Below, piece after piece: positions 1,562 through 43,570 of a DNA stretch of 50,545 nt (position 1 is its first letter; the number at the start of each line of letters is the position of its first letter). Source of the DNA: a virus. Both the position numbers and the translations under genes were made by a program. The stretch lies in the IMG/VR virus record IMGVR_UViG_3300037493_004972, positions 1-50,545 of that record; one strand, 5' to 3'. The notes under the pieces are model-generated. The model saw only the letters and a list, made by a program, of their open reading frames with translations, was not told where the DNA came from and did not search any database.

Positions 1562-3577
1562 TTATCTACCCTTTTTTGTGACTTTGACTTCCTCTCCGTC
1601 AACTTTGATTTGATAGGATTTGTTTTCAACCATCTTACCTGTCAATACTTCTTCAGATAAAAGGTCTTCAACCTTGTCTTGAATTGCCCTTTTTAAAGGA
1701 CGAGCTCCATACAATTCATCGAATCCAATTTTAGCTAAATAATTAACTAATGTTTCATCGTAACTGATTGTGTATTTCATCTCATCAAGACGAGCTACAA
1801 GTTTCTTCAATTCAATCTCAGTGATTTTCTTGATGTCTTCAGGACTTAATGAGTTGAATACGATTGTATCGTCGATACGATTCAAGAACTCAGGAGAGAA
1901 GAAATTCTTCATCTCTTTCATTAATACCTGTTTTTTAGCCTCCTCGTTTCCGTAAGTGTTGTTAGAGAAACCAATACCAGTTCCGAAGTCCTGAAGTTTC
2001 TTAACACCCAAGTTAGAAGTAAGGATAATCAACGTATTCTTGAAGTTAATCTTACGTCCAAGACTATCGGTAACATGACCATCGTCTAAGATTTGGAGTA
2101 AAATTGTGAATACATCTTTGTGAGCTTTTTCAACCTCATCAAATAGGATAACAGAATATGGTTTGTTTTTAACCTTTTCAGTTAATTGTCCACCTTCTTC
2201 GTATCCAATATAACCTGGAGGAGCTCCAACCAATTTAGATATGGTATGTTTTTCCTGATATTCAGACATATCCACACGGATAAGTGAATCTACAGAGCCA
2301 AACATTTCTTTCGCTAATTGTTTGGCCAAGTGAGTTTTACCCACACCTGTTGAACCAAGGAATACGAATGAACCGATTGGACGATTGGGGTCTTTGATAC
2401 CAAGACGATTTCTCTTAATTGCTTTTGCAATCTTGATAACTGCAGCGTCTTGACCAATTACTTTACCAATCAACTCCTTATCTAAATTGATAAGTGCTTT
2501 TGAATCATCAAGACTCATTTTGTTGACAGGGATTTTTGTCATGTTAGAAACAACATCATAAACATCTTCAAGAGTAATCTTTTGTTTGTCTTTGATAAGT
2601 TGTTCTTCAAACTTAGTCTTTTCAGTCTCAAGTTTATCTAACAATTTCTTTTCCTTGTCACGAAGTTGTGCGGCCTGTTCGTAGTTTTGCATCTTAACAA
2701 CATCAATTTTCTGTTGTTTGATTTCAGAAGCTTTCTTCTTAAGGTCTTCGATTACAGGTGGAACTTTAAGTTCGGTCTGCATACGAGCTCCAACTTCATC
2801 CAAGATGTCGAATGCCTTATCAGGGAATTCACGGTCGGTGATATATCGGTCAGCGAGTTTAACACACGTTTCAATAATCTCATCCGTATATGAAACCTTA
2901 TGATAAGATTCATATTTGTCTCGAACATTCTTGAGGATTTGGATTGTTTCCGCAACTGATGAAGGTTCAACCAAAACCTTTTGGAATCTACGTTCCAATG
3001 CTCCATCCTTCTCAATGTTCTTACGGAACTCATCGAGAGTGGTTGCTCCAATACATTGGAGTTCACCACGAGAAAGAGCTGGTTTGAAAATGTTTGAACC
3101 ATCCATAGAACCTGCTGAGTTACCAGAACCAACAAGGGTATGAATTTCATCAATGAATATGATGATATTGGGATTTGCTTGAAGCTCTTCAATAATAACC
3201 TTCATTCTTTCTTCAAACTGACCACGGTATTTAGTTCCCGCAACCACAGAAGTTAAATCAAGGTTTACAATTCTTTTGTCCACGAGATTTCTTGGACATT
3301 CACCATTCACAATTTTGATTGCGAGACCTTCAACAAGTGCGGTCTTACCACAACCAGGTTCCCCAACGATAATTGGGTTGTTTTTCTTACGACGGGAAAG
3401 AATCTGAGCGATACGTAGTATTTCTCTATCTCTACCAATAACAGGGTCCAACTTACCTTGTTCTGCAAGTTTATTTAAATCTCTACTGAAATTATCCAAG
3501 ACAGGAGTGCTACTGTCTGAATTCTGTTTTTGTTTTTTACTCTTCATTGTTTCGTCGTCGTCCATTAAATCATTCAT
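1562..3577 (-). CDS. ClpC-like Hsp100 AAA+ unfoldase lacking the N-domain
   Basis: A two-ring AAA+ unfoldase. D1 has GEPGCGKT (72-79), Walker B FIDE (141-144) and the pore-type motif [11 protein letters not shown] (114-124). D2 has GSTGVGKT (408-415), Walker B LFDE (478-481) and C-terminal [10 protein letters not shown]. Between them, residues about 285-330 form a short coiled coil with a UVR-like [11 protein letters not shown] stretch, as in ClpC and unlike the long ClpB middle domain. A GIGF sequence (534-537) sits where Clp ATPases carry the ClpP-docking loop. The usual N-terminal Clp_N repeats are absent: D1 begins after only about 30 polar residues, so adaptor recognition must differ. 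At 671 aa it is shorter than bacterial ClpC. It is transcribed divergently from hsp20, which suggests a shared proteostasis module. No clpP is seen in the window. Confidence 0.9.
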
Positions 3578-4181: not shown

Positions 4182-4206
4182 AACCCTCACTTCGGTGGGG
4201 GTTTTT
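4182..4206. terminator. Bidirectional rho-independent terminator
   Basis: A 9-bp stem (4182-4190 with 4195-4203, one G-T pair) closes a TTCG loop and is followed by T residues; A/T-runs flank both sides. It lies directly after hsp20 and overlaps the stop codon of the convergent phosphoesterase gene. Confidence 0.85.
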
Positions 4207-4828
4207 ACATTATAAAATCAAAAGGTTTACCACCTAATGTTTTTTGAGTAAGTCTGTCAACAATCGATGCGTTAGAAAATATTGTAATACCATCGGTAAA
4301 TGTTCCTTTGGAATGATGTGCATGTCCAAAAAGATGGTATTTTGGTTTATATTTTTTTACATATTCTAATAAACTAAATGAACCGACACTTTTACCTAAT
4401 TTGTTGTCAAGAATGTCTTTTGGAGGGCCATGAGTTATTAATACATCACATTCTATGTCTTTTAATTCGTTTTGAATATCAATGTCCGATAATTCCCCAA
4501 AGGGATAACGTGTATTAAATTCCTTTAAGGTCCCTGTTAATCCATAAAAAGTTATGTTACGAATTTTGAGTGATGAGTTTTGTAGTAATACAATATTTTC
4601 AGGTAATTTATAATTTAATAATTCTTCATCATGATTACCTAAAACAATAATTTTAAAATCGTAAGGTGTTCTATCAATCCAATCCACAATTTTTTCAATA
4701 GGTATTTTGTTTTCGAAGTCTAATATATCACCAGAATGAATCAGAATATCACCTCCAAGCAGAGTTAGAGTATCGTGATATCCATGGGTATCAGAAATGT
4801 GTGTTATCTTACAACTATTATCTATCAT
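4205..4828 (-). CDS. Calcineurin-like metallophosphoesterase
   Basis: A compact binuclear metallophosphoesterase. All family motifs are present in order: SDTHGYH, GDILIHSGD, GNHDE, LITHGPP and GHAH. I chose the ATG at 4828 because the SDTHG motif normally lies about ten residues from the start. The longer frame back to 4903 would run deep into the sulfotransferase gene. With this start the gene overlaps the upstream one by 11 nt, indicating co-translation. It is the last gene of the hydroxylase-sulfotransferase-phosphoesterase string. One attractive role is removal of the 3'-phosphate from PAP, the by-product of a sulfotransferase, but known PAP phosphatases are of a different fold, so this is only a guess. 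The substrate could equally be a cyclic nucleotide or a nucleic-acid end. Confidence 0.85.
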   Translation of the reverse strand: MIDNSCKITHISDTHGYHDTLTLLGGDILIHSGDILDFENKIPIEKIVDWIDRTPYDFKIIVLGNHDEELLNYKLPENIVLLQNSSLKIRNITFYGLTGTLKEFNTRYPFGELSDIDIQNELKDIECDVLITHGPPKDILDNKLGKSVGSFSLLEYVKKYKPKYHLFGHAHHSKGTFTDGITIFSNASIVDRLTQKTLGGKPFDFIM

Positions 4829-5483
4829 ATCCAAGAACTTTGAAATCAGAGATAAAATTTTTGTATATGATTTCCTTGGATTCTGAGTCCAAAAGATTAT
4901 CATAATTGATTTCTATTGGATTTCTATTCAAATTATATACAGGACCAATTTCTGATGAGATAAGGTTTGAAACTATTTTTAGATTATTTGATAAATCTTC
5001 GATTTTGAAGTAATGAATTTTTACACCTAAGTCATTGTGTGCTATTTGTTCGTCAAACATTCTTACACCCGACCAACTTTTTTTCGTCCGTAAATTTTCA
5101 TAATAATGAGAATCATCTCCAAAAAAATTTTTTATAAAATTTTCAGATGATTTACATTTGTCTACGTGAAAAACAAATTCTTTAAAATTCATTCCGTGAA
5201 ATGTAATTTTTTCATTGTTTGGGCTTATTCTAATTAGTTGATAGTAAGATGATACAAATCTATAATATGGATTTCTTGTAAATTGTAATATTGTATACTC
5301 TTCAGGATTTACTATGTCGTGTAGTTCACAAATTTCTGAAAGTTTCGGATGAAATACGGGATATCCAACAATTTTGGTTGATACATTAAAATTTATTTGA
5401 GCTCTTCTAAACACATCTTCGAGGGATGTTGATGCTGTTTTTGGTGGGGATAAAATAATTATTTTTTTTTCTGTGGATATCAT
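4818..5483 (-). CDS. PAPS-dependent sulfotransferase
   Basis: The N-terminal SPPKTASTS (12-20, K15) matches the loop that binds the 5'-phosphosulfate of PAPS. FTRNPYYRFVSSYY (68-81; R70, S78/S79) matches the 3'-phosphate-binding segment of sulfotransferases that modify carbohydrates or proteins. Total length is 221 aa, in the family range. I take ATG 5483 because it gives an ATGA overlap with the preceding hydroxylase gene; a further in-frame start at 5510 is less likely. It acts in the cytoplasm on an unknown acceptor, with host PAPS. Sulfotransferases are uncommon in phages; likely acceptors are a glycan made by the phage's own transferases or a protein side chain. The family call rests on both cofactor motifs. 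Confidence 0.8.
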   Translation of the reverse strand: MISTEKKIIILSPPKTASTSLEDVFRRAQINFNVSTKIVGYPVFHPKLSEICELHDIVNPEEYTILQFTRNPYYRFVSSYYQLIRISPNNEKITFHGMNFKEFVFHVDKCKSSENFIKNFFGDDSHYYENLRTKKSWSGVRMFDEQIAHNDLGVKIHYFKIEDLSNNLKIVSNLISSEIGPVYNLNRNPIEINYDNLLDSESKEIIYKNFISDFKVLGYDR

Positions 5484-6034
5484 GATTTTAATAAAGATGA
5501 TTGAACCCAATCAACAATTAAATGAATTCTATCATTATCACCAAAATTATCAACAGAATGTTTTTTCTTATCGTTATTAATTTCCCAAAGCTCACCCAAC
5601 ATTAAATTTTTCTTTTCATCACCAACTGTGAAAAAACAATTTTCGTTTGTTTGAATTGCAACATGTATTCTTCTACAATCAACTAAAGTTAGACCCGTGT
5701 CAACATGAGATGGAATTGATTTTTTTGCTGGTAAATTAACGAGTATTGCTCTCATTATTTTACCGTCTTCATTTGTGTTTTTTTGAATAATATTTTCCAA
5801 TTTCGAAATTTCAGATTCAAAAAGAGAATAAAGATTAGTTAAATGAATTTTGAAAGAATCAAAATTTAAATTTTTATCAAAAATAATTGGTATTGTTTTA
5901 GTGTTGGAGTGGACAATATATTTTAACTGTCTATCAATAAATTCATCCCAATTCAAATTATTATTTTTGATGATTTTTATTATAGGTTCAACATCAATTT
6001 TTCCATGAAATAAAAACGTCTCATTAAGTTCCAT
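5480..6034 (-). CDS. Aspartyl/asparaginyl beta-hydroxylase-like 2OG-Fe(II) oxygenase
   Basis: The C-terminal half carries a cupin-type 2-oxoglutarate oxygenase core: the iron ligands lie in SHVDTG (H110, D112) and KKHSVDN (H159), with R169 in DRIHLIVDW placed to bind 2-oxoglutarate. The R-x-H pair and ELWEINN stretch between them are typical of the Asp/Asn/Arg hydroxylase family. The N-terminal 90 residues are helical and not recognised. Numbering uses ATG 6034 (MELNETF); an in-frame ATG at 6052 would overlap the previous gene by 16 nt. It is followed by the sulfotransferase with an ATGA overlap. Hydroxylation could create or prepare the acceptor that is then sulfated; this is an inference from gene order. 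Confidence 0.78.
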   Translation of the reverse strand: MELNETFLFHGKIDVEPIIKIIKNNNLNWDEFIDRQLKYIVHSNTKTIPIIFDKNLNFDSFKIHLTNLYSLFESEISKLENIIQKNTNEDGKIMRAILVNLPAKKSIPSHVDTGLTLVDCRRIHVAIQTNENCFFTVGDEKKNLMLGELWEINNDKKKHSVDNFGDNDRIHLIVDWVQSSLLKS

Positions 6035-6036
6035 AG

Positions 6037-6630
6037 TTATATGTCCAAACATTTTAATTTACCGTCAGAACTGTATCCAAAGTTGTAACGGTGTGCATCA
6101 ACCAAAGTTTCGTGACCAACAACTTTTTCGATTGCTTTTTCACAATCTTTAAAAAGTTTAAAATACTTGATGAAAAGATTATAAGCATCTTTATCGTAAT
6201 CGTTTAATTTATTTGCAATCTCAGAGATTGTTTTTTGGTCATGCCCATGGTTTGTATATATGTCAGTGATATCTCTACCAAATGATTCGTCTTCAGAATC
6301 TATAACTCCTATCTCCTCCAACTTATCCTCTATTTGTTGCCACTCACTTAATACTCTATCTGTTTGTAATTTTTCGATTTCTGCATAATAAGTCCCACGA
6401 ACTTCACTATCATTTATTTTACCTGTTCTAAAAACTTCGGCAAAAATATTAGGATTTGAACGGAATACTTTAACCCAATGTAAAACACCCTCGTCACCCA
6501 CTTTGAATAATCTATTGGGGTTGTTTCTCGAAGAATAGATTCTATGTTCCATCCCACGATTGAATTCGTTTTTTTGTTGCGTTCTTACTTCAATCAAAAA
6601 GTTTTTTATAATTTGTTCAATAGATTTCAT
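6037..6630 (-). CDS. Uncharacterised phage protein with weak kinase-like C-terminus
   Basis: 197 residues from ATG 6630 (MKSIEQIIKNFLIEV); the in-frame ATG at 6675 is less likely because it lies within the divergent leader. The first 15 residues form an amphipathic helix ending in L-I-E, similar to candidate head-targeting tags elsewhere in the window. An 'EHRIYSSRNNPNRLFKVGDEG' region and a terminal H-R-Y-N-F-G-Y...G-K-L-K-C-L-D-I resemble the beta-lid and the HxxNFG...D metal-binding segment of protein-kinase-like folds. No full kinase motif set is visible. It could be a packaged kinase-like effector or simply a structural accessory. It sits just upstream of the hydroxylase cassette and reads in the same direction. 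Confidence 0.6.
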   Translation of the reverse strand: MKSIEQIIKNFLIEVRTQQKNEFNRGMEHRIYSSRNNPNRLFKVGDEGVLHWVKVFRSNPNIFAEVFRTGKINDSEVRGTYYAEIEKLQTDRVLSEWQQIEDKLEEIGVIDSEDESFGRDITDIYTNHGHDQKTISEIANKLNDYDKDAYNLFIKYFKLFKDCEKAIEKVVGHETLVDAHRYNFGYSSDGKLKCLDI

Positions 6631-6678
6631 GATACTATTAAATAGTAAAAAGGTTTGAAATTCTTTTAATAACAAATC

Positions 6679-6686
6679 TATTTATG
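6679..6686 (+). promoter_or_regulatory. TATTTATG octamer, 3 nt before a gene start
   Basis: TATTTATG overlaps the first possible ATG (6684) of the next gene and ends 3 nt before the second (6690), which favours 6690 as the true start. Confidence 0.4.
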
Positions 6687-6689
6687 ATT

Positions 6690-6992
6690 ATGGAAACTTG
6701 GAAAAAATTTATTGAAGAGACTTCGAGTATGCAAGAACTCTTAGAGAAGTATTTGGAAATTAGATTACTTCTGAAAGAATTGGGTCACACTGAAGAAACC
6801 GTAACTAGAATTAAATCAGGGCCTAACAAATTATTCGAATTGAGAGCAGAAATTGCTTATTTATTTGACCACCTTAAAAAACATTTACGTAAATATGGGT
6901 TTGATATTCCTGATTCAGAAGTTAATCTTTATTTACAATCAAAAATGGATAAAATTGATTCATTAATACCATTGAACAATGCCAATAACTAG
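6690..6992 (+). CDS. Small helical hypothetical protein
   Basis: About 100 residues, predicted almost wholly helical, beginning METWKKFIEETSS. I prefer ATG 6690 over 6684 because the earlier ATG lies inside the TATTTATG octamer. The N-terminal 'W-K-K-F-I-E-E' is like the short N-terminal tags of T4-like internal head proteins (for example M-K-T-x-x-E-F-I-x-E), but the resemblance is short. No domain is recognised. It overlaps the following KTSC gene by 14 nt and starts the long rightward unit that leads to the head genes. Confidence 0.6.
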   Translation: METWKKFIEETSSMQELLEKYLEIRLLLKELGHTEETVTRIKSGPNKLFELRAEIAYLFDHLKKHLRKYGFDIPDSEVNLYLQSKMDKIDSLIPLNNANN

Positions 6993-7221
6993 AGAAGAAA
7001 TCAAAGGAACGAAGATTATCAACGAAATAAAGTCTTCAAACATTAAGAAAACTGAATACGACACTGAAACAAAAAAATTAGTGGTTGAATTTAACAACGG
7101 ACTAAAATACGAGTATGATGAAGTTCCCCACCAATCATATACTCAATTCAGAAAATCGGAATCACAAGGTAAATTTTTTACAACCGAAATCTCAAAAAAA
7201 TTCAAATATAAAAAACTATAG
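6979..7221 (+). CDS. KTSC-domain protein
   Basis: An 80-residue protein that is essentially one KTSC domain. The diagnostic features are the 'SSNIKKTEYD' opening, alternating strands 'KLVVEFNNGLKYEYDEVP', and a closing 'F-R-K-S-E-S-Q-G-K-F-F' helix followed by 'ISKKFKYKK'. KTSC is a small fold named from lysyl-tRNA synthetase-associated proteins; it also occurs as stand-alone genes in phages and plasmids. Its biochemical role is unknown, with nucleic-acid binding suggested by its basic surface. It overlaps the gene before it and sits 21 nt before the lysozyme fusion gene, so all three are probably one transcript. Confidence 0.85.
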   Translation: MPITREEIKGTKIINEIKSSNIKKTEYDTETKKLVVEFNNGLKYEYDEVPHQSYTQFRKSESQGKFFTTEISKKFKYKKL

Positions 7222-7242: not shown

Positions 7243-9027
7243 ATGGATAGTTACAAAAAAATTCTTGATAGTTTTTCGATTAAAGAAACACTTAACCCAA
7301 AGGTTTGGGAAAATCCGAGCGACCCTGAAAAAGCAACCTTGATAACCAAAATCAGAAAGGCTCTTTTGCGTATTGCAGATGAGTTTGTTGATGATTTGGG
7401 AGAGGATGTTTTTGTTGAAGATATCTACCTGATGGGTTCGTTAGCGAATTTCAATTGGTCTGAGTTTTCCGATTTTGATTTACACGTTATCATCGATTTC
7501 GAAAGATATGGTAAACAAGAAAAATTATACGAAGAATTATTCGACCTTAAAAAGAAATTATTTAATGACAAACACAACATCAGGATTTTTGGATATGATG
7601 TTGAAGTATATGCTCAGGGAGAATCTGCCGAATCCCACAGCGATGGAGTTTATTCTATAATGAATAATGAGTGGGTTCACGTTCCAACAAAAACACATAA
7701 GAACATTGATATGTCAGTTCTGAAAAAGAAAATTAAATGTTGGACTGATAAGATAGATGATGCAGTTGAAATTGCCAAGTCTGAAGGTAATGCTGAAAAA
7801 CTTAAATCTCTTAAAGAAAAATTAAAAGATTATAGACAGTCTGGTTTGAGTAAAGATGGTGAATTTTCTTATGAGAATTTGGTATTCAAATTCCTAAGAA
7901 GGTCAGGACATATTGGTAAGTTGTTTGATGAAAAGACAAAGATTAAAGATAAAGAATTATCAATTGAGAACAAACTGAAAGAAAATCTTTCAATTAAAAA
8001 AGTAGTTTTTGAAGATGCAGAAAGTCATCCATTTATTGATATGTTGAAACAATTGACAATTGCTGTCGGAGGAACTCCTGAAGTTTCAGACGCAATTGCT
8101 AACTCAAAATATCTAACTAATTTGAATGGACTATTAGATAACAATGTGAAATATGAATATACACCAGGTCAAAAAGTTCCATATTTTGCAGATGTCGAAG
8201 AAATACAAAAGGGATTACAACTTTTAGGACACTCATTACCGAAATCTGGCGTTGATGGAAAATTTGGTCAAGAAACAGAAGAAGCAACCAAAAAGTTTCA
8301 AGAAAAAAATAACATGACTGAAACAGGTGTTTTTGGAAAAGAAGAAATAAAAACCCTTATCGAAAATCTAATTTCTCAAAATTTTAAAGATAGTGATTTA
8401 GGTAAAGTTCAAACAGAACGTCAATATAGTGATAGTAGTGTAAAATCTAGTTTAAAGTTTAGAGATGCTGTTGACACCATTACAAACAAATTAGAAGGAG
8501 GATATTTTCATCCCTATATGAAAGCAGCAAACCAAAGTAAATTTGGGGTGATGGGTGATAGTGGAGAAACTATGTTTGGTATGGATAGAAAACATGGTAG
8601 ACAAGAAAGTAATTCATCGGCAGGGGTTGAGTTTTGGAGATTAATTGATGCTGAAGACGCAAAAAGTAATTGGAAGTATGGATATGCTTTAGAAGATAAT
8701 CCTACCTTAAGAGACAAATTGTTAGATTTGGTTTCACAAATTATGGAACCACATTTTTTAGATTTTTCTGAAAGATATCTTTCTGATGAGGCTAAGAACA
8801 TTATTATGAGTGACCCCAAACTATATTTTAACTTCGCTTACGCGGCATATCAGGGGTCTGGATGGTTTCAAAAATTTGCCAAAAAATTTAATCAGAAAGT
8901 AGAAGAAGGTGTTACAAATATAGATGAACTCAGAGATTATGTTCTCCAAATAAGAAAAGAAAGTGGAAATCCAATAATTTCAGGTTCAGGAAACAAGATA
9001 AATAGGATATTTGATACAATGCCATAA
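7243..9027 (+). CDS. Three-part protein: nucleotidyltransferase, peptidoglycan-binding domain, GH108-like lysozyme
   Basis: 594 residues with an unusual order of domains. Residues about 20-160 form a MNT-type nucleotidyltransferase: G65-S66, then S76-D77-F78-D79 and a third acidic position near D119/E121, the full catalytic pattern. About 160-260 is a charged helical linker. About 317-374 is a peptidoglycan-binding repeat ('IQKGLQLLG...GVDGKFGQETEEATKKFQ'). About 405-590 resembles GH108-type phage muramidases: L-E418-G-G-Y, then S-G-E-T-M-F-G-M. The cell-wall half implies a virion or lysis enzyme that cuts peptidoglycan. What a nucleotidyltransferase does on the same chain is unclear; it could be a packaged toxin or a tRNA/protein modifier. 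The first 20 residues (ILDSFSIKE) could be a head-targeting tag. Confidence 0.8.
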   Translation: MDSYKKILDSFSIKETLNPKVWENPSDPEKATLITKIRKALLRIADEFVDDLGEDVFVEDIYLMGSLANFNWSEFSDFDLHVIIDFERYGKQEKLYEELFDLKKKLFNDKHNIRIFGYDVEVYAQGESAESHSDGVYSIMNNEWVHVPTKTHKNIDMSVLKKKIKCWTDKIDDAVEIAKSEGNAEKLKSLKEKLKDYRQSGLSKDGEFSYENLVFKFLRRSGHIGKLFDEKTKIKDKELSIENKLKENLSIKKVVFEDAESHPFIDMLKQLTIAVGGTPEVSDAIANSKYLTNLNGLLDNNVKYEYTPGQKVPYFADVEEIQKGLQLLGHSLPKSGVDGKFGQETEEATKKFQEKNNMTETGVFGKEEIKTLIENLISQNFKDSDLGKVQTERQYSDSSVKSSLKFRDAVDTITNKLEGGYFHPYMKAANQSKFGVMGDSGETMFGMDRKHGRQESNSSAGVEFWRLIDAEDAKSNWKYGYALEDNPTLRDKLLDLVSQIMEPHFLDFSERYLSDEAKNIIMSDPKLYFNFAYAAYQGSGWFQKFAKKFNQKVEEGVTNIDELRDYVLQIRKESGNPIISGSGNKINRIFDTMP

Positions 9028-9077: not shown

Positions 9078-10172
9078 ATGGCGTTAGTTACATATCTCGT
9101 TGGTAGTTGCTCTGGAGGTCCGGCAATATTAGTTGATTTTGATAGTGTTTCGTTACCTGCGGTTAACGGTAATTATTATTTAACTTTTGTGGGTGCGACT
9201 GCACCTGGTTGTTATGATATCATAGACAATGCAGAGCCAGCAACTGGGGTAGATAGAGTGGCAACCTTATCTACAGATTATGGTGATTGTGTTACCTGTC
9301 TTGCGGCTAATCCCACACCAACCCCGACACCAACTCAAACAGTTACTCCAACAACTACACCGACAAATACACCCACACCATCAATAACGCCAACAAACAC
9401 ACAAACCCCAACACCAAGTATTACAACATCTGTCACACCGACTAAAACACCTACACCAACTCAAACACCAACGACAACAGTAACACCAACAGTGACGCAA
9501 ACAAAAACACCAACCCAAACGCCAACAACAACTCCGACAAGAACAGTTACTCCAACAATAACTCCGACAAATACACAAACTCCAACTATTACTCCAACAA
9601 GAACATCAACTCCAACAATTACACCAACACCGACTATCACACCAAGTATAACTCCAACAATCACTGTCACACCATCTGTGACAAGAACTTTAACCCCTAC
9701 ACCAACAATAACTCCAACAACAACAATTACACCAAGTGTAACTCCTACATTAACACCAACACCAACTGTAACTCCATCATCGGCTCCATACTGGTTAATC
9801 AGAAATTGTGGTGGAGGTGGATTATTTAGTGTTGAGATAGACGGAGTAGTCACGTTAGGTCAAACAATATTGGCAACTTTTGGAAATCAAACACCTTATG
9901 GATGTTACATTGTTGAGGGTCATAGTTTCGGACCAATTATAGATACTGCAACTGTTGTAGATGCTTATGAAACTTGTGAAGAGTGTGGTGTTTATTATAC
10001 AGGAACGACCGTTGATACTTTTTATGAATATAATGGATTCTGTTGTGACCCTGTAAGTGGTTATACAGGTTCAGGAACTACATATCCTCATCCAGAATAT
10101 GGCACTGACGGTGGAATTGCGATTCAATCAATGTCAGTTAAATTAGGTGGATTCAACGGATTAAACAATTAA
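9078..10172 (+). CDS. Mucin-like Pro-Thr-rich virion-type protein with duplicated Cys domain
   Basis: A 364-residue protein of three parts. Residues about 5-75 and about 237-310 are two related modules: each opens Y-L/W with a C-x-G-G turn, has a central G-C-Y-(D/I) and ends in C-x-x-C. Between them, residues 79-234 are almost only Thr, Pro and a few Ser, Ile, Val, Gln, an extended mucin-like stalk. The C-terminal 50 residues add another Cys pair and a Gly-rich tail. No signal peptide is visible. The organisation suits a fibre or decoration protein with two small heads joined by a rigid rod. The Thr-rich rod is a plausible O-glycosylation substrate for the transferases encoded downstream, but this is inference. 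Confidence 0.7.
   Translation: MALVTYLVGSCSGGPAILVDFDSVSLPAVNGNYYLTFVGATAPGCYDIIDNAEPATGVDRVATLSTDYGDCVTCLAANPTPTPTPTQTVTPTTTPTNTPTPSITPTNTQTPTPSITTSVTPTKTPTPTQTPTTTVTPTVTQTKTPTQTPTTTPTRTVTPTITPTNTQTPTITPTRTSTPTITPTPTITPSITPTITVTPSVTRTLTPTPTITPTTTITPSVTPTLTPTPTVTPSSAPYWLIRNCGGGGLFSVEIDGVVTLGQTILATFGNQTPYGCYIVEGHSFGPIIDTATVVDAYETCEECGVYYTGTTVDTFYEYNGFCCDPVSGYTGSGTTYPHPEYGTDGGIAIQSMSVKLGGFNGLNN
9312..9780 (+). repeat. Low-complexity ACN-CCN repeat tract encoding the Pro-Thr stalk
   Basis: The coding strand is nearly free of G for about 470 nt and rich in A and C, with degenerate units such as ACACCAACA and ACTCCAACA. Units vary in third positions, so the tract is under protein-level selection rather than being a recent simple-repeat expansion. 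Confidence 0.85.
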
Positions 10173-33200: not shown

Positions 33201-34253
33201 TTATAATTCAGTTTTTGTGATTTGTTCTTCGAATGAATCTGCTCTTGTTGTTAAAAATGTTTCAAATAAATTAACGACACTAGTTTCAAATTCTTGTTTA
33301 TTTTGGTATTTTACCACAGTTTCTTTCATGTGGTCAAACAATTCAGGTTTGATACCGTCTTCTAACCAATTTTGAATAAAATCAGCGATGAAGTCTGACA
33401 TAAGTGTTACATCAGTAACCCATATACCGTTGTCTTCAGTCATCCACTCAGGTTGTAAATCAGGGATTTTACCGATTGTTGGAACACCACAGGCCATTGA
33501 TTCTAATGGGAATGTTCCAAATCCACTTTTATCGTCAATCCAAATACTTAAGAAACATTCTTTCAAAGACTTTGCAAAATCTTTTTCAGATAAACCTCTT
33601 AAATCTCTGAATGTAAACCATCTGTATTGTGGAAACTTCAAATAGAATGTTTTGATTAAATTAACCGCATCGCTTTGTTCTTTTGTATGAACAGCAACTA
33701 TTGGCATTGGAGGTGTAGGTTTTGGTGAAAAGCTCTCTCCGATATATGGTTTAACAATATCAAAGGTTGATTGTCTCATTACTCTTTCGATATAATCTTT
33801 TTGAAGATTTGAAGTTGTAATACATTTGTAGAATCCAAACTGAGCCCATCCTTGACCTGGTTGTAACGTTTCTAACATGTTGGAATATTGTTGTGTTAAA
33901 ACAATTTTCGCACAAGGTAGTTTTGAAACTTGTTCCATAATGAAACCAAAAATTTCAGGAATGATTAAAAAATCTTCAGGAGATATTTCTAAGTTTTGAC
34001 CTTCGATTGCTTTGTGAGGTAATGTCATATATTCTTCACCTAACCATGAGGCGACACCTACATAGTCATTCTTTTCGTGAAGCATAATTGGATTAAATCC
34101 GTCTTTTCTAAGAGCATCTGCCATTTGATAAATTAATCTAATAGATGCCTTAGCATTACCTTTTGTGTCTTGAACAAAAAAGTAAATTCTTGCTTTTTTC
34201 TCTCTTAAATTTTGAATTGAGAGTTGAACTTTTTCTGTTGCTAAATTTCCCAT
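33201..34253 (-). CDS. GT-B (family 4-like) glycosyltransferase
   Basis: 350 residues of two Rossmann-like halves. The N-terminal half begins after a charged tail with 'ARIYFFVQDTKGNAKASIRLIYQMADALR', a glycogen-synthase-like acceptor loop. The C-terminal half contains 'FLSIWIDDKSGFGTFPLESMACGVPTIG', the classic E-x-M-A-x-G-x-P donor-binding signature with a preceding G-F-G loop. No transmembrane segment is present. The product is unknown. It follows the small gene at 34255 and precedes the GT2 gene with 1-nt spacing. Confidence 0.8.
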   Translation of the reverse strand: MGNLATEKVQLSIQNLREKKARIYFFVQDTKGNAKASIRLIYQMADALRKDGFNPIMLHEKNDYVGVASWLGEEYMTLPHKAIEGQNLEISPEDFLIIPEIFGFIMEQVSKLPCAKIVLTQQYSNMLETLQPGQGWAQFGFYKCITTSNLQKDYIERVMRQSTFDIVKPYIGESFSPKPTPPMPIVAVHTKEQSDAVNLIKTFYLKFPQYRWFTFRDLRGLSEKDFAKSLKECFLSIWIDDKSGFGTFPLESMACGVPTIGKIPDLQPEWMTEDNGIWVTDVTLMSDFIADFIQNWLEDGIKPELFDHMKETVVKYQNKQEFETSVVNLFETFLTTRADSFEEQITKTEL

Positions 34254-34254
34254 A

Positions 34255-34536
34255 TTAATAGTGATTGATAAGTTTTTTGTTTAATAATGAATTGAATGCT
34301 AGTTTGAATGGAATCGTAGTTTGTGCTGCTGATTTGATACCTAATTTATCGTCAATATCATCATTTTCGGAGAGAACTACCTCAAGTAACATTTTTACAA
34401 GTTCGAACTTAATTACGTTAATTCTCATTTCTGTTGCACCTGTCATTGGTTCTGAAGAAGGACTATCTGACATATCGAGATACCTTTCAACTTCATCCAA
34501 GTCGACAAAGTAATTTTCATTTAAAAATTTAATCAT
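34255..34536 (-). CDS. Small hypothetical protein
   Basis: 93 residues. An acidic N-terminal helix (MIKFLNENYFVDLDEVERYLD), a Ser/Pro/Gly turn, then two helices rich in Leu, Val and Lys. No domain is recognised. It overlaps the preceding HAD-like gene by an ATGA and sits 1 nt before the GT-B gene, so it is translated with both. Its role, perhaps as a partner of one of them, cannot be told from sequence. Confidence 0.55.
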   Translation of the reverse strand: MIKFLNENYFVDLDEVERYLDMSDSPSSEPMTGATEMRINVIKFELVKMLLEVVLSENDDIDDKLGIKSAAQTTIPFKLAFNSLLNKKLINHY

Positions 34537-35123
34537 TTTATTTCTTTAATTTTTTCTTCAAGTTCTTTCAATTTTGAGATTGAATACTTTGTTTTAATGT
34601 CTGAGTTGTATGTTGTGTCGTATTTAACCACAACTTTTCCTTCAGGATGGTTTAATAATAATTGTGGATTTGCTGTAAGTAAAATGTCTACGGAATCCCA
34701 AAGAGAATTAATTGTGGATTCACTGTAAAATTTTACAGTTTCAACCAAACACCCAAATTTAGATATGAAAAATAAAGATGCTGGTTTAGATTTACCCATT
34801 TCATCTGAAACAACAAGAATGTCGTGTTCGTCACGCATGTTTAAATAAAAATCGTTGAAATCCATCATTGATGAAGTTTCAACAGAACCAGCGTGTCCAA
34901 AAATTTCCATCGTATGTTCTTTGTATAGGAGATTATATACATCATCTTCATCTTTAAATGCGAGATGTTCTGAAATATTCAAGGTAGTCAAATCGGAAAT
35001 AACTTTGTATTCAAATTCAGTTTCTTCTTTAAACGGATTTTCTATATACCACTTTTCATATTCCTGTTGTATTTTTCTTAATGTGTCTCTTAAAACGCCA
35101 TTAAGTTCAATTCCTATTTTCAT
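34533..35123 (-). CDS. HAD-like nucleotidase fold with degenerate active site
   Basis: 196 residues with the outline of a 5'(3')-deoxyribonucleotidase-type HAD protein. The first strand reads MKIGIELNGVLRDT. In active enzymes this is D-x-D-G-V-L-x-D; here the nucleophile Asp is Glu6 and the second Asp is Asn8. 'HDILVVSDEMG' fits motif II, K in 'GKSKPASLFFISK' motif III, and D-S-V-D-I-L-L-T-A-N-P motif IV. Loss of both motif I carboxylates suggests no phosphatase activity; a binding or regulatory role is more likely. It overlaps the PhoH gene by an ATGA. Confidence 0.7.
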   Translation of the reverse strand: MKIGIELNGVLRDTLRKIQQEYEKWYIENPFKEETEFEYKVISDLTTLNISEHLAFKDEDDVYNLLYKEHTMEIFGHAGSVETSSMMDFNDFYLNMRDEHDILVVSDEMGKSKPASLFFISKFGCLVETVKFYSESTINSLWDSVDILLTANPQLLLNHPEGKVVVKYDTTYNSDIKTKYSISKLKELEEKIKEIK

Positions 35124-35854
35124 TCTTCGTATCTTTTTAAAATTCCAGTAATCAAAGGATTTCTTACAATATCTTGTCCACCAAATTCAAAAGTTCCGAT
35201 ATCATTCATATCCTGAAACTTTTGCAATGCATCCCAAAGACCCGTATGTGTTTTATCTTTGTGTCTATCAAATTGTTCTAAGTCTCCTGAAATAAAGAAT
35301 TTAGAGTTGAATCCAATTCTTGTTAAAAGAAGTTTCATTTGACTTGGAGTAGAATTTTGTGCTTCTTCAAAGATTAAAATTGAATTGTCAATATTCATAC
35401 CTCTCATGTAAGCTAAAGCAAAAACTTCAATAGCTTCGATGTCTTTTAATTTTTCTCTTACATCTTTACCAATAATTTTATTCAAAAGATAATAAGATGG
35501 GAAAATATAAGGGTCTAATTTTTCTTCCACATTACCAGGGAGACTTCCTAATTTTTCTTCTGCTTCAACTGCTGGTCTTACGATTATTATTTTCTCATAA
35601 GGAGTTTCTGGGTCTACCAATAAGTCTACAGCACATTTCATAGCTATATAACTTTTACCGACACCTGCAGGACCTGAACATATTGTTATTTGATTGTTTG
35701 TGAGAATGTCATAATAATGTTTCTGACTCTCTGATAAAAATTTTTGTTTGGTTTTCTTTTTTACGATTGAACAAATTAAATCTTTTTTACTTTTAAAATT
35801 ACCCTCACTTACAGTGGGAGTTGGTTGTGGACTTCTTCTCGTCAATTTACTCAT
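35120..35854 (-). CDS. phoH: PhoH-like ATPase
   Basis: 244 residues. Walker A is GPAGVGKS (61-68), Walker B ILIFEEAQN, and the family signatures 'IIIVRPAVEAEEKLGSLPGNVEEKLDPY' and 'RIGFNSKFFISGDLEQFDR' are intact. PhoH proteins are RNA/DNA helicase-like ATPases that are very common in marine and other large phages; their exact phage role is debated (RNA handling, phosphate stress, recombination). The short basic N-terminus with PQPTPT is variable. It lies between the epimerase gene (5-nt gap) and the HAD-like gene (4-nt overlap), thus inside the sugar-gene run. Confidence 0.92.
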   Translation of the reverse strand: MSKLTRRSPQPTPTVSEGNFKSKKDLICSIVKKKTKQKFLSESQKHYYDILTNNQITICSGPAGVGKSYIAMKCAVDLLVDPETPYEKIIIVRPAVEAEEKLGSLPGNVEEKLDPYIFPSYYLLNKIIGKDVREKLKDIEAIEVFALAYMRGMNIDNSILIFEEAQNSTPSQMKLLLTRIGFNSKFFISGDLEQFDRHKDKTHTGLWDALQKFQDMNDIGTFEFGGQDIVRNPLITGILKRYEE

Positions 35855-35859
35855 TGTTT

Positions 35860-36951
35860 CTATTTTATTTTTATCCGACCTACTTCACCTGATTTTCTCT
35901 TGAATATAGTATTTCCATCGGGGCTTTCATAAATCCATATTGTATTTTTGTCAACGTTGTCAACTTCAGACTTAATCCAATTATAAGTTAACTTCATGCC
36001 CATGTCCAATGGAAAGGATACATTGCTACCTATTTTTTCTTGATATAGTTTATTATCTGAATTTCTACCATTAACTCCTAAGGGACATTTAAAACCATAT
36101 TTTTGTATGAAGTCATCACCCTGTAAGTTTTTGATTGTTAGTTTCTTACCTGAAAGTGCAATTGCAATTTCAGCAAGTTTGTTTATAGTAACCATTTCTT
36201 CACTACCAATATTAACTGGTCCTGAGAAATTACTATCCATAAGTTCTAAGATTGCTCTTACACACTCATCAACATATAAAAATGAACGAGTTTGATTACC
36301 ATCACCCCAAACTTCAATCTCATCTCCATCTTTAGATTCAACAACTTTTCTACACATTGCTGCAGGAGCCTTTTCTCTTCCACCAGTCCACGTTCCTTGT
36401 GGTCCATATATGTTATGGAATCTGGCAATTTTGACATCTAACCGATAATTTTTTTGGAATGCCAAGTATAATCTTTCAGAGAATAATTTTTCCCATCCGT
36501 ATTCTGAATCTGGATTTGCGGGGTATGCCGAACTTTCTTCACAGTTAGGGTTTAATGGGTCTAACTGATTGTGTTCAGGATACATACATGCAGATGAAGA
36601 ATAAAATATTTTCTTAACCTTTTTGATAACACATTCTTTTGCAACATTGAGATTAATGGTTGCTGAGTTGTGCATTACGTCTGCGTCGTGTTGACCTGTG
36701 AATATATACATTGCTCCGCCCATGTCAGCGGCTAGTTGATATACTTCATCTACATCTTCTTCGATAACTAACTTAACAACATTGGGGTCAGTTAAATCAC
36801 CAACAATAAATTCGTCACAGATTTCATCTTGGAAGAAATATTCGTGTTTTTTTAAATCACAGATTCTAACGTGATTCCCTTGTTCTTTTAGTTTTTTTGC
36901 GAGATGACCTCCGATGAAACCACCTCCACCTAATACAACTATTTTTTTCAT
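35860..36951 (-). CDS. GDP-mannose 3,5-epimerase-like NDP-sugar epimerase
   Basis: 363 residues of the extended SDR family. GGGGFIGG (8-15) binds NAD; Y151 and K155 (YGWEK) form the catalytic pair. 'ADMGGAMYIF', SSSACMYPE, FHNIYGPQGTWTGGREKAPAA and 'DGNQTRSFLYVDEC' closely follow plant GDP-mannose 3,5-epimerase. The two acid/base residues of that enzyme, C145 and K217 in Arabidopsis, correspond to C122 and K194 here, with the same spacing of 72. The reaction would give GDP-L-galactose or GDP-gulose. The C-terminal 25 residues ('WIYESPDGNTIFKRKSGEVG') are an addition. It overlaps the methyltransferase gene by 4 nt. Confidence 0.85.
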   Translation of the reverse strand: MKKIVVLGGGGFIGGHLAKKLKEQGNHVRICDLKKHEYFFQDEICDEFIVGDLTDPNVVKLVIEEDVDEVYQLAADMGGAMYIFTGQHDADVMHNSATINLNVAKECVIKKVKKIFYSSSACMYPEHNQLDPLNPNCEESSAYPANPDSEYGWEKLFSERLYLAFQKNYRLDVKIARFHNIYGPQGTWTGGREKAPAAMCRKVVESKDGDEIEVWGDGNQTRSFLYVDECVRAILELMDSNFSGPVNIGSEEMVTINKLAEIAIALSGKKLTIKNLQGDDFIQKYGFKCPLGVNGRNSDNKLYQEKIGSNVSFPLDMGMKLTYNWIKSEVDNVDKNTIWIYESPDGNTIFKRKSGEVGRIKIK

Positions 36952-37541
36952 ATTATGTAAGATTTGTTTTTCAATACTGTTAACCCATTATTGTTTTTGT
37001 AGACACGAAACAATTCCCAACTTTGTCCAAGTTCTGTTGATAAAAAATCCTCGACCGCTGTCATAAGTCCTGTTTTTGTCGATGGGGTTTCCTTTATAAC
37101 GTTACTTGCATGTTGATATACATCCTCATCGGTTCTGCCAAAATGTTCTGTATCGTGTAGGACAATATATTTCGAAACTTTGTTCGAATGTATTTCTAAT
37201 TCTTTGATTAATTGATTATAAGTGTGTAAGGTATCAATAAAAAGAAGTTCTGTTGGTTCAATTTCTAATTGAAGAACATCTTTTTCTTCAAAAGAATAAT
37301 TGATGGAATATTCGTTACAAAGATTTATAACCTCGGTAATGTTTGGGTTTTTTAAGATATCGTAACTAATCATTTTCTTTGGGTTAGAATAAACTAAGGG
37401 CCAAGTTGATGATACCCATCTAACCCCCATTTCTGTGATATGAGAACATTCTTTACCTAAATTATATAAGGTTTCTAAATGTTCATTGATGTCTGAGTAG
37501 GTGCTTTTGTGTTGGTTGTATTTTTCTAAAATTTTTTCCAT
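36948..37541 (-). CDS. Class I SAM-dependent methyltransferase-like protein
   Basis: 197 residues. A Rossmann-type order is visible: 'ECSHITEMGVRWVSSTW' (motif I region, E-x-G), 'KKMISYDI' (acidic end of strand two), 'PTELLFIDTLHTYNQLIKEL' (motif with D-x-x-H-x-Y) and 'KYIVLHDTEHFGRT'. The D-x-x-H-(T/S)-Y and H-D-T pattern is like cephalosporin-hydroxylase/rhamnosyl O-methyltransferase-type enzymes that methylate sugars. In the sugar cluster an O-methyltransferase capping a glycan is likely. A 15-bp hairpin covers its start codon. The next gene follows with a 4-nt overlap. Confidence 0.72.
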   Translation of the reverse strand: MEKILEKYNQHKSTYSDINEHLETLYNLGKECSHITEMGVRWVSSTWPLVYSNPKKMISYDILKNPNITEVINLCNEYSINYSFEEKDVLQLEIEPTELLFIDTLHTYNQLIKELEIHSNKVSKYIVLHDTEHFGRTDEDVYQHASNVIKETPSTKTGLMTAVEDFLSTELGQSWELFRVYKNNNGLTVLKNKSYII

Positions 37542-37582
37542 AATTTTGAATTATATCTAATGATAAGATAATTCAAAATTAT
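37540..37582 (-). promoter_or_regulatory. 15-bp perfect inverted repeat over a stop/start junction
   Basis: ATAATTTTGAATTAT at 37540-37554 pairs with its exact complement at 37568-37582; the spacer is 13 nt. In the leftward mRNA the first arm contains the UAA of the gene at 37579 and the second arm runs into the AUG at 37541. It could couple or attenuate translation. No T-run follows, so it is not a typical terminator. Confidence 0.6.
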
Positions 37583-38226
37583 TTGTAGGATAATTTCTTC
37601 AGTTCAAAGATAGACTTCATGTATTGACAATCTTTTTCTCTATTGGATGTTTTGATTCTATAATGGTAGTGATTCATGGGGGTATTTTCATTCACTGTTT
37701 CAACATCAAATCTTGGTGCCAACACTGGATTAACCCTTAAACTTCTTAATAAAAACCCTAATGCAACATCATCTATAAATCTGTGTTCCCAATATTCTTT
37801 TTTGAGAAGAACTAAATCAACAACATTTTTAGAAACAATAAATCCTGAACCTGAGGCGAAATGAATTCCGTGGTGATTTCCAATTATTCCTGAATAAAAA
37901 TTGGTTTTTGGTTTATCTTGTAAATAATCCTTTAACATTTGCTTGTCGACGTAAGAACTAGAATTTGTTCTGAATATGTAATCATATTCATAATCCTTCA
38001 ACAATTCGAATGCCTTTATTGTTTTATGCCCACAATTGTATAAAGACTCACGAACATTCGTTTTTATTAGATTTCCATCAATTGTGTCCTCATTATTGTT
38101 TCCAACCATAAAGAAGGTGTCAACACCTTCGACCTCAATAGAATTCCATGATTCATTTTGAGTCTCAAAAAATTTTGTATATATGCCTCCGTCTAAATAA
38201 CTTAGAACTACTATGAGAATTTTCAT
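37579..38226 (-). CDS. GT31-like (beta-1,3-galactosyltransferase-type) glycosyltransferase
   Basis: 215 residues. The opening 'MKILIVVLSYLDGG' and the following strand order resemble bacterial relatives of family 31. The place of the D-D-D metal motif reads 'YDYIFRTNSSSYVD' (R86, T87, N88), without the acidic triplet. The later segment 'FASGSGFIVSKNVVDLVLL' and 'FIDDVALGFLLR' matches the G-x-G-Y-x-x-S and E/D-D-V-x-x-G signatures. The missing D-x-D may be a subfamily feature rather than decay, since the rest is intact. It overlaps the next upstream gene by 1 nt. Acceptor unknown. Confidence 0.65.
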   Translation of the reverse strand: MKILIVVLSYLDGGIYTKFFETQNESWNSIEVEGVDTFFMVGNNNEDTIDGNLIKTNVRESLYNCGHKTIKAFELLKDYEYDYIFRTNSSSYVDKQMLKDYLQDKPKTNFYSGIIGNHHGIHFASGSGFIVSKNVVDLVLLKKEYWEHRFIDDVALGFLLRSLRVNPVLAPRFDVETVNENTPMNHYHYRIKTSNREKDCQYMKSIFELKKLSYK

Positions 38227-39053
38227 TAAAAATTAAATTTTGGTATGTTATTGATAATAGTTTCAATTTTACTTTGATGTGCTGAGTAATTTTTAGTTGT
38301 TAACTCTGAATAATATCCTTCTTGTAACCGATTGATATTAAAATTTTTATTAATATTACCACAAAAGTCTATTCTATTTTTCACCCAATAATCCCAAAAA
38401 ATATCGAAATAAATTATTTCTTCAGGATTTTTATAAATTGATATTTTTTCAGACGCATAACATTCATCTAAACCCCATAATTTTCCAGGATAAAAATTAT
38501 TATTCAGATGATATCTATTTCTACTGTTGTATACTTTTAATATTTCATCTTGCCATTCGTCATTTATTTCAAAAATTTCTTTGAATTTTTTTCCTTTACC
38601 TACTAAATGTGACGATGGGAATAAGACGTTGGTTGCAGTGTTGAAATATCCTAATTTATTTTTGTCGTACCCCTTATAAGCGTCCGAAAATCCTATGATA
38701 AACTTATCATCGGAAAATTCTGACACTTTCTTGAAAAATAAATCACCCAAAGGTATTTGGTCGATACCTGATAACATACATGTATCATTTGGAAATTGAG
38801 ATGCCCCCCAAAAAAAAGACCATGTAACACTCCAATCAGGACTAGATTCCGAAACTTCAGGAACCGTGTTTACGATAATATAGTCTTCAGGAGCTATACC
38901 AAAATTATTACCATCAAACTCACTTTGAGTTCCATTGAAAATTAACGTTGGTGTTATATTGAAATTATCTTTCCAAACTTTACTTACAACTTTCCAAAAA
39001 TGAGTATAAGAAGGATTGTTGTTCAAAACTAATATTACTCTATCTATTTTCAT
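38226..39053 (-). CDS. Putative glycosyltransferase, paralogue A
   Basis: 275 residues. It is a clear paralogue of the gene at 40540: both begin MKIDRVIL-x-x-N-N-N-P, share F-W-x-x-x-S-K-x-x-K, I-T-P-T-x-I-F-x-G-x-Q, and L-x-G-I-D-Q-I-P-x-G, and both end in a N-x-P-K-F motif. The G-I-D-Q-I-P segment is followed by a D-D-K/D-A-Y region that could bind a nucleotide sugar. The fold is probably GT-A, but no named family is recognised. Its start overlaps the acetyltransferase stop by 4 nt. Confidence 0.6.
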   Translation of the reverse strand: MKIDRVILVLNNNPSYTHFWKVVSKVWKDNFNITPTLIFNGTQSEFDGNNFGIAPEDYIIVNTVPEVSESSPDWSVTWSFFWGASQFPNDTCMLSGIDQIPLGDLFFKKVSEFSDDKFIIGFSDAYKGYDKNKLGYFNTATNVLFPSSHLVGKGKKFKEIFEINDEWQDEILKVYNSRNRYHLNNNFYPGKLWGLDECYASEKISIYKNPEEIIYFDIFWDYWVKNRIDFCGNINKNFNINRLQEGYYSELTTKNYSAHQSKIETIINNIPKFNF

Positions 39054-39517
39054 TTTTCTCTTATTACTTTACAAGGATTACCATAACATACGGAATTAGG
39101 TGGCATATTTTTTGTGACAACAGAGCCAGCACCAATCAAAGTGTTTTCTCCAATTTCGTTTCCACACACAATTGTTGTGTTTGCGCTAACGCTACAACCT
39201 TTTCTTAAAAAGGTTTTTCTAAACCTGTCTTTCCAATCATTATTTACATCAGGAAAAATATCATTGGTTGTTATTACGTTTGGTCCAATAAAAACATCGT
39301 CTTCAATAACCACACCATCATATATTAACGAATGGTTTTGAATTTTACAACCATCACCGATGACTACGTTTGGTCCTATGTATACGCCTTCACCAATGAC
39401 TACGTTATTACCAATTTTAGCATTTTTACAGATGTGTGAGAAAGCCCAAATTTTACAATTATCTCCGATTGATTCTGACTCAACAATTGAGGTTGGGTGA
39501 ATAAAAGTATTTTCCAT
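39050..39517 (-). CDS. Left-handed beta-helix N-acetyltransferase (WbpD/WlbB-like)
   Basis: 155 residues made of hexapeptide turns: 'IVESESIGDNCKIWAFSHIC', 'KIGNNVVIGEGVYIGPNVVIG', and so on. 'KIQNHSLIYDGVVIEDDVFIGPNVITTND' then R-K-T-F-L-R-K-G and 'SANTTIVCGNEIGENTLIGAGSVV' follow WbpD/WlbB, which acetylate the 3-amino group of a UDP-2-acetamido-3-amino uronic acid. The conserved Asn of the 'KIQN' turn and the Asp of 'YD' are present. It is a trimer in known cases and acts in the cytoplasm with acetyl-CoA. Directly followed by paralogue A and preceded by the WlbA-like dehydrogenase, which supports a shared pathway. Confidence 0.82.
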   Translation of the reverse strand: MENTFIHPTSIVESESIGDNCKIWAFSHICKNAKIGNNVVIGEGVYIGPNVVIGDGCKIQNHSLIYDGVVIEDDVFIGPNVITTNDIFPDVNNDWKDRFRKTFLRKGCSVSANTTIVCGNEIGENTLIGAGSVVTKNMPPNSVCYGNPCKVIREK

Positions 39518-39528
39518 CTGATTCTTAA

Positions 39529-40539
39529 TTATTTCGTATATTTTATATTTGCTTTTGAGTATACCTCATCAATAAGTTTAATAACATTCAAAGTCTCTTT
39601 CAATTCAAACTCGTTCAAATTTTTATAGACGAATGGATGATTTGGACAAGAACCTTGATAAGAACCATAACTATTAGGTTCGGAATTAATATAAAATTTT
39701 TTTTCTAATTTATCAAAAATAACTTGGGAACCATGAGATAAAAATGTTGCTGACTCAATAATGTTGAGAGCTTTCCCCCCAACTTTTACATAACCATTTG
39801 CACCCAAAATAGATATCGAACACTCAATGTTTTGAGGTTCGGATGCAATTGTAACTTCACAAGTTCCACCATAATTTCCAAAATCAAATATAGAATAAAT
39901 CGTATCTTCAATACCTACATTTTTATGTTTGATTTCATATGTTTTTGTTCCAACTATAGATGGTTTACCAAACAAATATTGTAACACATCTAAGTAATGA
40001 ATACCACATTCGTAAAGAGTTCCACCACCAACTGAAGGTTCTGCTCTCCATCCGGTAAAATATTCTAATGGTCGTTGCCAACGTTGAACAAAATTTACCC
40101 CTCTAATTTGACCTAATAAGTTTTGTTTTAAAACTTCTTTGATTAATTGAACTGTTGGATTCAATCTAACTTGTAAGACACAATACGCCTTTCTATTATT
40201 TTTCTCAGCTTCTTTTAATATGTCATAAACCTCTTCGTCTGTAAACGCAACAGGTTTTTCTATCAATACATCACATCCATTTCTCAATGCAAAAATTGCT
40301 TGTTCGTGATGTAATGAGTTTGGTGTGCAAATTGTAACAAAATCTACCTGTTTAGATAATATCATTTCTTTATAATCAGTGTATGCACTGACATTCAGAC
40401 GTTTAGATAAACTCTTAACTAATACTTCTTGAATATCACAAACTGATTTTAATTCAAAGTCATCGTTGAAATCGATGGCTTCCAAATGTCTTGGTAGGAT
40501 TGCACCACATCCAATAATCCCTACTTTATATTTTTTCAT
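39529..40539 (-). CDS. Gfo/Idh/MocA oxidoreductase (WlbA/WbpB-like)
   Basis: 336 residues. The N-terminal Rossmann domain has GIIGCGAI (7-14), 'CTPNSLHHEQA' and E94-K95-P96, whose lysine is catalytic in the family. 'GWRAEPSVGGGTLYECGIHYLD' places H181 where WlbA has its active-site His. WlbA/WbpB oxidise C3 of UDP-GlcNAcA ahead of amination. The acetyltransferase of the same pathway (WbpD-like) is the next gene, 11 nt away. The aminotransferase (WbpE) and UDP-GlcNAc dehydrogenase (WbpA) are not in this window; they may lie elsewhere or come from the host. Family is sure, substrate is inferred. Confidence 0.82.
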   Translation of the reverse strand: MKKYKVGIIGCGAILPRHLEAIDFNDDFELKSVCDIQEVLVKSLSKRLNVSAYTDYKEMILSKQVDFVTICTPNSLHHEQAIFALRNGCDVLIEKPVAFTDEEVYDILKEAEKNNRKAYCVLQVRLNPTVQLIKEVLKQNLLGQIRGVNFVQRWQRPLEYFTGWRAEPSVGGGTLYECGIHYLDVLQYLFGKPSIVGTKTYEIKHKNVGIEDTIYSIFDFGNYGGTCEVTIASEPQNIECSISILGANGYVKVGGKALNIIESATFLSHGSQVIFDKLEKKFYINSEPNSYGSYQGSCPNHPFVYKNLNEFELKETLNVIKLIDEVYSKANIKYTK

Positions 40540-41328
40540 TTAAACGAATTTAGGAACGTTATCAAAAATACTATCTAAGTATTTTTTATGGTTTAAGTAT
40601 GGTCTACATGAATGACATTCAATGTATCCATTATTTTTTAATGTATCTAAATTAAATGGTATTTCAAGACTTCTATGACAATCAATTCTTCCTCCGTTTA
40701 ATATTTCACCAAACTTAGAAAGACATTCAATATCTATTTCTTTATTCTTTTTATATAAAACCTGACTTGAATATGCCTCGTCCATGCCCCAAGTTCCCCA
40801 CATAGAATCTAATTTAATTGATTCAATTTTTTTGATTTCATCCTCAAATGTATCTTCAAAAGAATAAACCTTATTAAATGTTTCACCTTTAGCGATATGA
40901 TATGCTGATGGTGAGTGACCACCTTCAGACCAGTCTTTACGACCCATCATTAGTTTATATGCGTCATCGATTAACATCACATATTTGTTTTCATTTATTT
41001 CTTTAATGTAATCAATTAAAAATTTACTACCCATTGGAATTTGGTCGATTCCATTTATCAAACAAACTTCATTTGGAAAATTCTTTGTGAAATAAAAGAG
41101 AGCCCACGTTGTTGTCCAAGATACATCTTTACTTGGAACAATATCTTGTCTTATGATATCACCAAACTCTCTTGATAATGGTAAACTATCTAATTCTTCT
41201 TGGCTACCTAAAAAGATTATTGTTGGAGTGATACCAAAATTTTCTTTATAAAGTTTAGATAATGGATTCCAAAATTGATAATAAGTTGGATTGTTATTTG
41301 TGCTTAATATTACTCTATCTATTTTCAT
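40540..41328 (-). CDS. Putative glycosyltransferase, paralogue B
   Basis: 262 residues; paralogue of the gene at 38226, with the same MKIDRVIL opening, I-T-P-T-I-I-F and L-I-N-G-I-D-Q-I-P-M-G motifs. A later G-M-D-E-A-Y segment matches G-L-D-E-C-Y of paralogue A, and could be a second acidic site. The C-terminus has a C-H-S-C-R pair of Cys that A lacks. The two copies flank the dehydrogenase/acetyltransferase pair, so one probably arose by duplication within the cluster and they may add related sugars. No family name is certain. Confidence 0.6.
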   Translation of the reverse strand: MKIDRVILSTNNNPTYYQFWNPLSKLYKENFGITPTIIFLGSQEELDSLPLSREFGDIIRQDIVPSKDVSWTTTWALFYFTKNFPNEVCLINGIDQIPMGSKFLIDYIKEINENKYVMLIDDAYKLMMGRKDWSEGGHSPSAYHIAKGETFNKVYSFEDTFEDEIKKIESIKLDSMWGTWGMDEAYSSQVLYKKNKEIDIECLSKFGEILNGGRIDCHRSLEIPFNLDTLKNNGYIECHSCRPYLNHKKYLDSIFDNVPKFV

Positions 41329-41333
41329 ATAAT

Positions 41334-43560: not shown

Positions 43561-43570
43561 GTGAATTTAG

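Follow-up and report, generated by a model that had tools for sequence, protein, structure and literature searches.

There are reports of phage 2OG oxygenases, of phage Asp/Asn beta-hydroxylases and of phage sulfotransferases (PMC3037559, PMC10580990, PMC12195039), and the function of the phage sulfotransferases was described in 2023 as remaining unclear (PMC10580990). Among the accessory genes of aquatic phages, those for sulfotransferases and 2OG oxygenases recur without explanation, and no description of a hydroxylase-sulfotransferase pair or fusion was found in the open-access literature. Phage DNA hypermodification combines a TET/JBP-type hydroxylase with a glycosyltransferase. The pair described here would follow the same logic, a 2OG enzyme making a hydroxyl that a transferase caps, but the likeness is one of analogy only: the oxygenase belongs to another family, and the cap is a sugar there while a sulfate is proposed here. 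Two characterized hydroxylases serve as further references. Animal AspH has a TPR domain and a two-His iron site without an Asp ligand, and L-proline cis-4-hydroxylase, an enzyme of free L-proline, is not known to pair with a sulfotransferase.

The stretch of DNA analysed (the window) is a 50,545-base virus record of IMG/VR from a T4-like phage, whose terminase matches those of T4-type phages with 25-28% identity at best (uncultured, Microcystis and Flavobacterium phages). Its minus strand codes for a 2OG/Fe(II) hydroxylase (positions 5480-6034, ATG at 6034 and stop at 5480; 184 amino acids), a PAPS-type sulfotransferase (4818-5483, ATG at 5483 and stop at 4818; 221 amino acids) and an MPPED2-like metallophosphoesterase (4205-4828, ATG at 4828 and stop at 4205; 207 amino acids), the last being a variable passenger outside the conserved core. 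The hydroxylase stop and the sulfotransferase start overlap by 4 nt in the motif ATGA (5480-5483), and the sulfotransferase and phosphoesterase genes overlap by 11 nt (4818-4828). An earlier reading made from the sequence alone had given the three genes at 4205-6034, their order and the two overlaps, all of which were confirmed. Its three family assignments hold as well, the Pfam scores exceeding the gathering threshold in each case, and all three start codons are supported by homologue alignments that begin at the same starts. A codirectional gene coding for a 197-amino-acid protein (6037-6630, minus strand), absent from that reading, ends 2 nt upstream of the hydroxylase start. Its product found no family match in Pfam or NCBIfam searches, and its position differs among relatives.

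The hydroxylase matches PF05118 Asp_Arg_Hydrox (7e-13, 49.1 bits for a gathering threshold of 22.6). Its predicted ligands H110, D112 and H159 and the 2OG-binding R169 are invariant in 18 of 18 diverse members, and the predicted model is confident (pLDDT 94). The nearest solved fold is that of L-proline cis-4-hydroxylase (PDB 4p7w/4p7x; 4e-10), which is also the only sensible sequence match in the PDB (E 0.002) and whose HxD...H motif and following R lie within the region aligned to the phage protein. The two enzymes differ in sequence (17% identity) and in length (~280 residues versus 184). Another near fold is a hydroxylase from a nucleoside-antibiotic pathway. The predicted fold favours an amino-acid-type substrate. 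Human aspartyl/asparaginyl beta-hydroxylase (AspH) shares the Pfam family and matches the predicted fold with about 1e-6, whereas the phage protein is a single domain without TPR and with the invariant D112, and thus does not have the hallmarks of animal AspH.

The sulfotransferase matches PF03567 Sulfotransfer_2 (1e-6, 29.5 bits for a threshold of 22; diverse homologues reach 41-46 bits). It features the motifs for PAPS binding, namely the 5'-phosphosulfate loop PPKTASTS (residues 13-20) and the 3'-phosphate motif R70...S78; K15, S18, S20, P72 and S78 are invariant in 17 sequences and R70 is nearly so. The predicted model (pLDDT 91) recovered only the general fold in structure searches. The motifs and the fold (5e-4) are shared with Sulfotransfer_2 members, heparan sulfate 6-O-sulfotransferase and SULT, while the phage enzyme is very divergent, with low TM-scores, and its fold gives no substrate. 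NCBIfam held no match for the hydroxylase or the sulfotransferase, and a tblastn search of annotated phages returned no relative of the sulfotransferase and a single distant match for the hydroxylase (Limnohabitans phage DC33). Membership of a known defence system was also considered and rejected, PADLOC giving for these two proteins nothing beyond a weak, implausible Cas11 match.

Profile searches of virus contigs with the hydroxylase and with the sulfotransferase yielded 29 contigs each, in mostly identical sets. In nearly all of them the hydroxylase gene followed by the sulfotransferase gene sits at one place, flanked by the KTSC/102-aa genes on one side and Hsp20/ClpB on the other. The deviating cases are a clade phage with the sulfotransferase and no hydroxylase (L059), a contig that terminates within the hydroxylase (L029), a locus where an opposite-strand gene separates the two (L021), and two loci that carry the ClpB of the window's clade and a hydroxylase without detectable sulfotransferase (L187, L192). 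An opposite-strand gene for a protein of 171-176 amino acids is found near the pair in several relatives (L002 at 7845-8360, L059 at 6619-7149, also L003 and L021). In the L059 copy a motif like the HxD of a further 2OG oxygenase can be seen by eye, but Pfam gives no match.

Divergence of the hydroxylase correlates with that of the sulfotransferase (Mantel r 0.70 for 17 non-redundant pairs, 0 of 2000 permutations; 0.76 within the clade). Between the window and its relative L003 the flanking and neighbouring genes are 89-99% identical, in contrast to 73% for the hydroxylase and 40% for the sulfotransferase. This difference suggests that the cassette was exchanged by recombination, apparently with retention of the pair. 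The dN/dS of close pairs is 0.07-0.18, a sign of purifying selection showing that both genes are maintained.

The association extends well beyond the window's clade. The best 80 of 522 virus stretches matched in a broad hydroxylase search, together with two loci found through the sulfotransferase (L267, L289), were reduced at 90% identity to 51 loci. Six of these code for a fused protein, 21 have a sulfotransferase gene at 60 nt or less on the same strand, 16 more have one within 3.5 kb and eight have none, counts in which about nine loci belong to the window's own clade, redundancy having been removed by identity and not by phylogeny. When L267 and L289 are left out, a same-strand sulfotransferase lies within 3.5 kb at 41 of the 49 non-redundant loci from the best 80 of 522 (19 abutting, six fused), as detected with profiles that were partly seeded from the same hydroxylase loci. 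The same profiles found no sulfotransferase at any of 58 control phosphoesterase loci (606 kb). The fused proteins have an amino-terminal sulfotransferase and a carboxyl-terminal hydroxylase in a single chain at all six loci; Pfam confirms this for L202, L243 and L261 (Sulfotransfer_3/1 plus Asp_Arg_Hydrox). Each fusion architecture is represented by several contigs, so the fusions are not single frameshifts.

In the phage of L058, which is T4-like and distant (terminase 29-31% identical to that of the window), the order is reversed and the sulfotransferase gene overlaps the hydroxylase gene that follows it. The reversed, overlapping arrangement is also found in a bacterium of the Cyclobacteriaceae related to Lunatimonas (L173), where the sulfotransferase is intact. 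In Lunatimonas lonarensis (L121) this gene is broken by one stop codon, and in a third bacterial genome it is reduced to fragments. The bacterial pair occupies a single chromosomal site, where it is intact, interrupted by the stop codon or reduced to sulfotransferase fragments (L121 at 5283-6507, L173 at 4916-6086, L174 and L178). The conserved unit is therefore the hydroxylase-sulfotransferase pair, found together or fused across unrelated genomes.

APS kinase carries out the last step in making PAPS, the sulfate donor. L185 and L259 each have a gene resembling it in the vicinity of the hydroxylase (PF01583, 1.5e-17 and 6e-16), and other loci have weaker, ambiguous kinase-like matches. No APS kinase was found in 11 records of the window's clade and L058, on which ground viral PAPS synthesis was rejected for that clade; in these phages PAPS must be host-derived.

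The recurrence of the pair in many phages and a few bacteria, also in fused form, indicates at the level of gene content that the two enzymes very probably act in one pathway. Classically, gene fusion and repeated overlap point to steps that follow one another or to a shared substrate. It is probable that they form a two-enzyme module. The 2OG/Fe(II) enzyme would oxidise a C-H bond of an amino-acid-type substrate, most likely a residue in a protein or peptide made by the phage and less likely a free metabolite, and the sulfotransferase would then transfer sulfate from PAPS, normally made by the host, to the product, the hydroxyl just created being the most likely acceptor. The module has intact catalytic motifs, a pair that travels together, purifying selection, fusions elsewhere and an APS-kinase-like gene at two loci on its side; counting against it are the eight of 51 hydroxylase loci (best 80 of 522 plus L267 and L289) without detectable sulfotransferase. 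From these data we infer which step comes first, which hydroxyl accepts the sulfate and what kind of substrate is used. The data are read most simply as sulfation of the hydroxyl just made, but the sulfate may instead go to another position on the same molecule. The recurrent pairs and the fusions replace two vague annotations with a single two-step reaction that can be tested, and provide ready-made single-chain enzymes.

A phage-made protein is the favoured target because the pair adjoins tail or head genes in L188, L193 and L219, while the bacterial copies, which come without phage genes, speak for a target that is also available from a cell. In nearly all relatives a Thr/Pro-rich repeat protein (PTPTPT...; window 9078-10172) is encoded next to the cassette. 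It does not adjoin the pair in L004 and L005; for this reason it was dropped as the fixed target and counts only as a candidate. A wider proposal is made tentatively: aquatic phages may have a dedicated pathway in which a 2OG enzyme hydroxylates an amino-acid side chain in a protein made by the phage and the new group is sulfated by a sulfotransferase, either a separate partner or fused to the hydroxylase, some of these phages supplying an APS kinase for the donor. If so, viral protein modification would include a type not described so far, with a sulfotransferase that is swapped between nearly identical phages.

The two enzymes might instead modify different positions of one molecule: the sulfotransferase would sulfate a glycan of the virion or surface at one of its sugars, and the hydroxylase would act on another part of the carrier. 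This is the strongest of the alternatives, albeit an unlikely one. Sulfotransfer_2 enzymes act mostly on carbohydrates, so that the acceptor could be a sugar, and the window protein has a weak match to the galactose-3-O-sulfotransferase group phrog_3347 (1.2e-5). As read from the list of ORFs, several glycosyltransferase-like and sugar-enzyme-like genes also lie at 33201-46082 of the window, which suggests that the phage decorates something with glycans. Against a glycan acceptor, partner sulfotransferases span at least two Pfam groups, Sulfotransfer_2 and Sulfotransfer_1/3, the latter also supplying fused or abutting partners, and the bacterial copies stand alone with no obvious glycan locus around them.

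That the adjacency is accidental, the two genes being unrelated cargo transferred together, appears improbable. Accessory islands that gather such enzymes make chance adjacency more likely. The L058 pair is surrounded by an array of genes for 2OG oxygenases, other sulfotransferase-like proteins and a radical SAM enzyme, islands of this type with many 2OG enzymes, sulfotransferases and a radical SAM gene are also found in L226 and L260, and some hydroxylases and sulfotransferases occur alone. Counting against an accident are the fusions, overlaps in both gene orders, correlated divergence, persistence of the pair after allele replacement and the absence of sulfotransferases from all 58 control loci.

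The sequence-only reading had joined the phosphoesterase to the other two enzymes in one cassette. Its interpretation stands for two genes in so far as they very probably belong to one pathway, is a proposal as regards the chemistry, and errs in counting the phosphoesterase as core: joint conservation holds for the pair, in both orders and as fusions, and fails for the three-gene unit. The phosphoesterase matches PF00149 Metallophos (5e-14, above the gathering score) and the metallophosphodiesterase MPPED2 (PDB 3rl3/3rl4/3rl5; E 2e-25, 1.6e-25 for 3rl4), having His where 3rl4 reads FGHIH and 3rl3 FGGIH, and differs from MPPED2 in its phage context. Residues D13, H15, D34, N65, H66, H133, H169 and H171 are invariant in three homologues. 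Within the clade only four lineages carry the gene (window, L002, L001/L006 and L008). Removal of the by-product PAP by this enzyme is possible, but a true three-step pathway, in which it would clear PAP or a blocking phosphate, is very improbable. It was rejected since the gene, while overlapping the sulfotransferase gene in L001, L002 and the window, is not kept together with the pair: it is absent from most clade members, lies apart from the pair in L008, has relatives at 58 other virus loci with neither hydroxylase nor sulfotransferase, and codes for a protein that resembles MPPED2, not PAP phosphatases, and matches a stand-alone candidate defence family. That match, to PADLOC family PDC-S10 (1.3e-52), is its strongest outside Pfam. 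The phosphoesterase is probably independent cargo and might act on its own in anti-phage defence or competition.

Enzymes of the islands in L058, L226, L230, L260 and L184, as well as the hydroxylases of L185 and L259, end in a common tetrapeptide such as KTLL, KSLL or NKLI. Its carriers are otherwise unrelated and include 2OG oxygenases, sulfotransferase-like and radical SAM proteins and a Cys-rich protein of ~100 amino acids. The tetrapeptide terminates 33 of 69 island ORFs, versus 4 of 773 ORFs at control loci and 0 of 120 in the window's clade, and none was found in 40 kb of the L058 contig outside the island. Since its codons vary, it looks like a peptide address tag. Three of the islands start with a gene for a protein of ~500 amino acids without known family (L058 at 773-2275, L230 at 1818-3308 and L260 at 1165-2661). 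Its amino-terminal part is conserved and its carboxyl terminus is a variable Cys-rich tail; the island enzymes may use this protein as a substrate.
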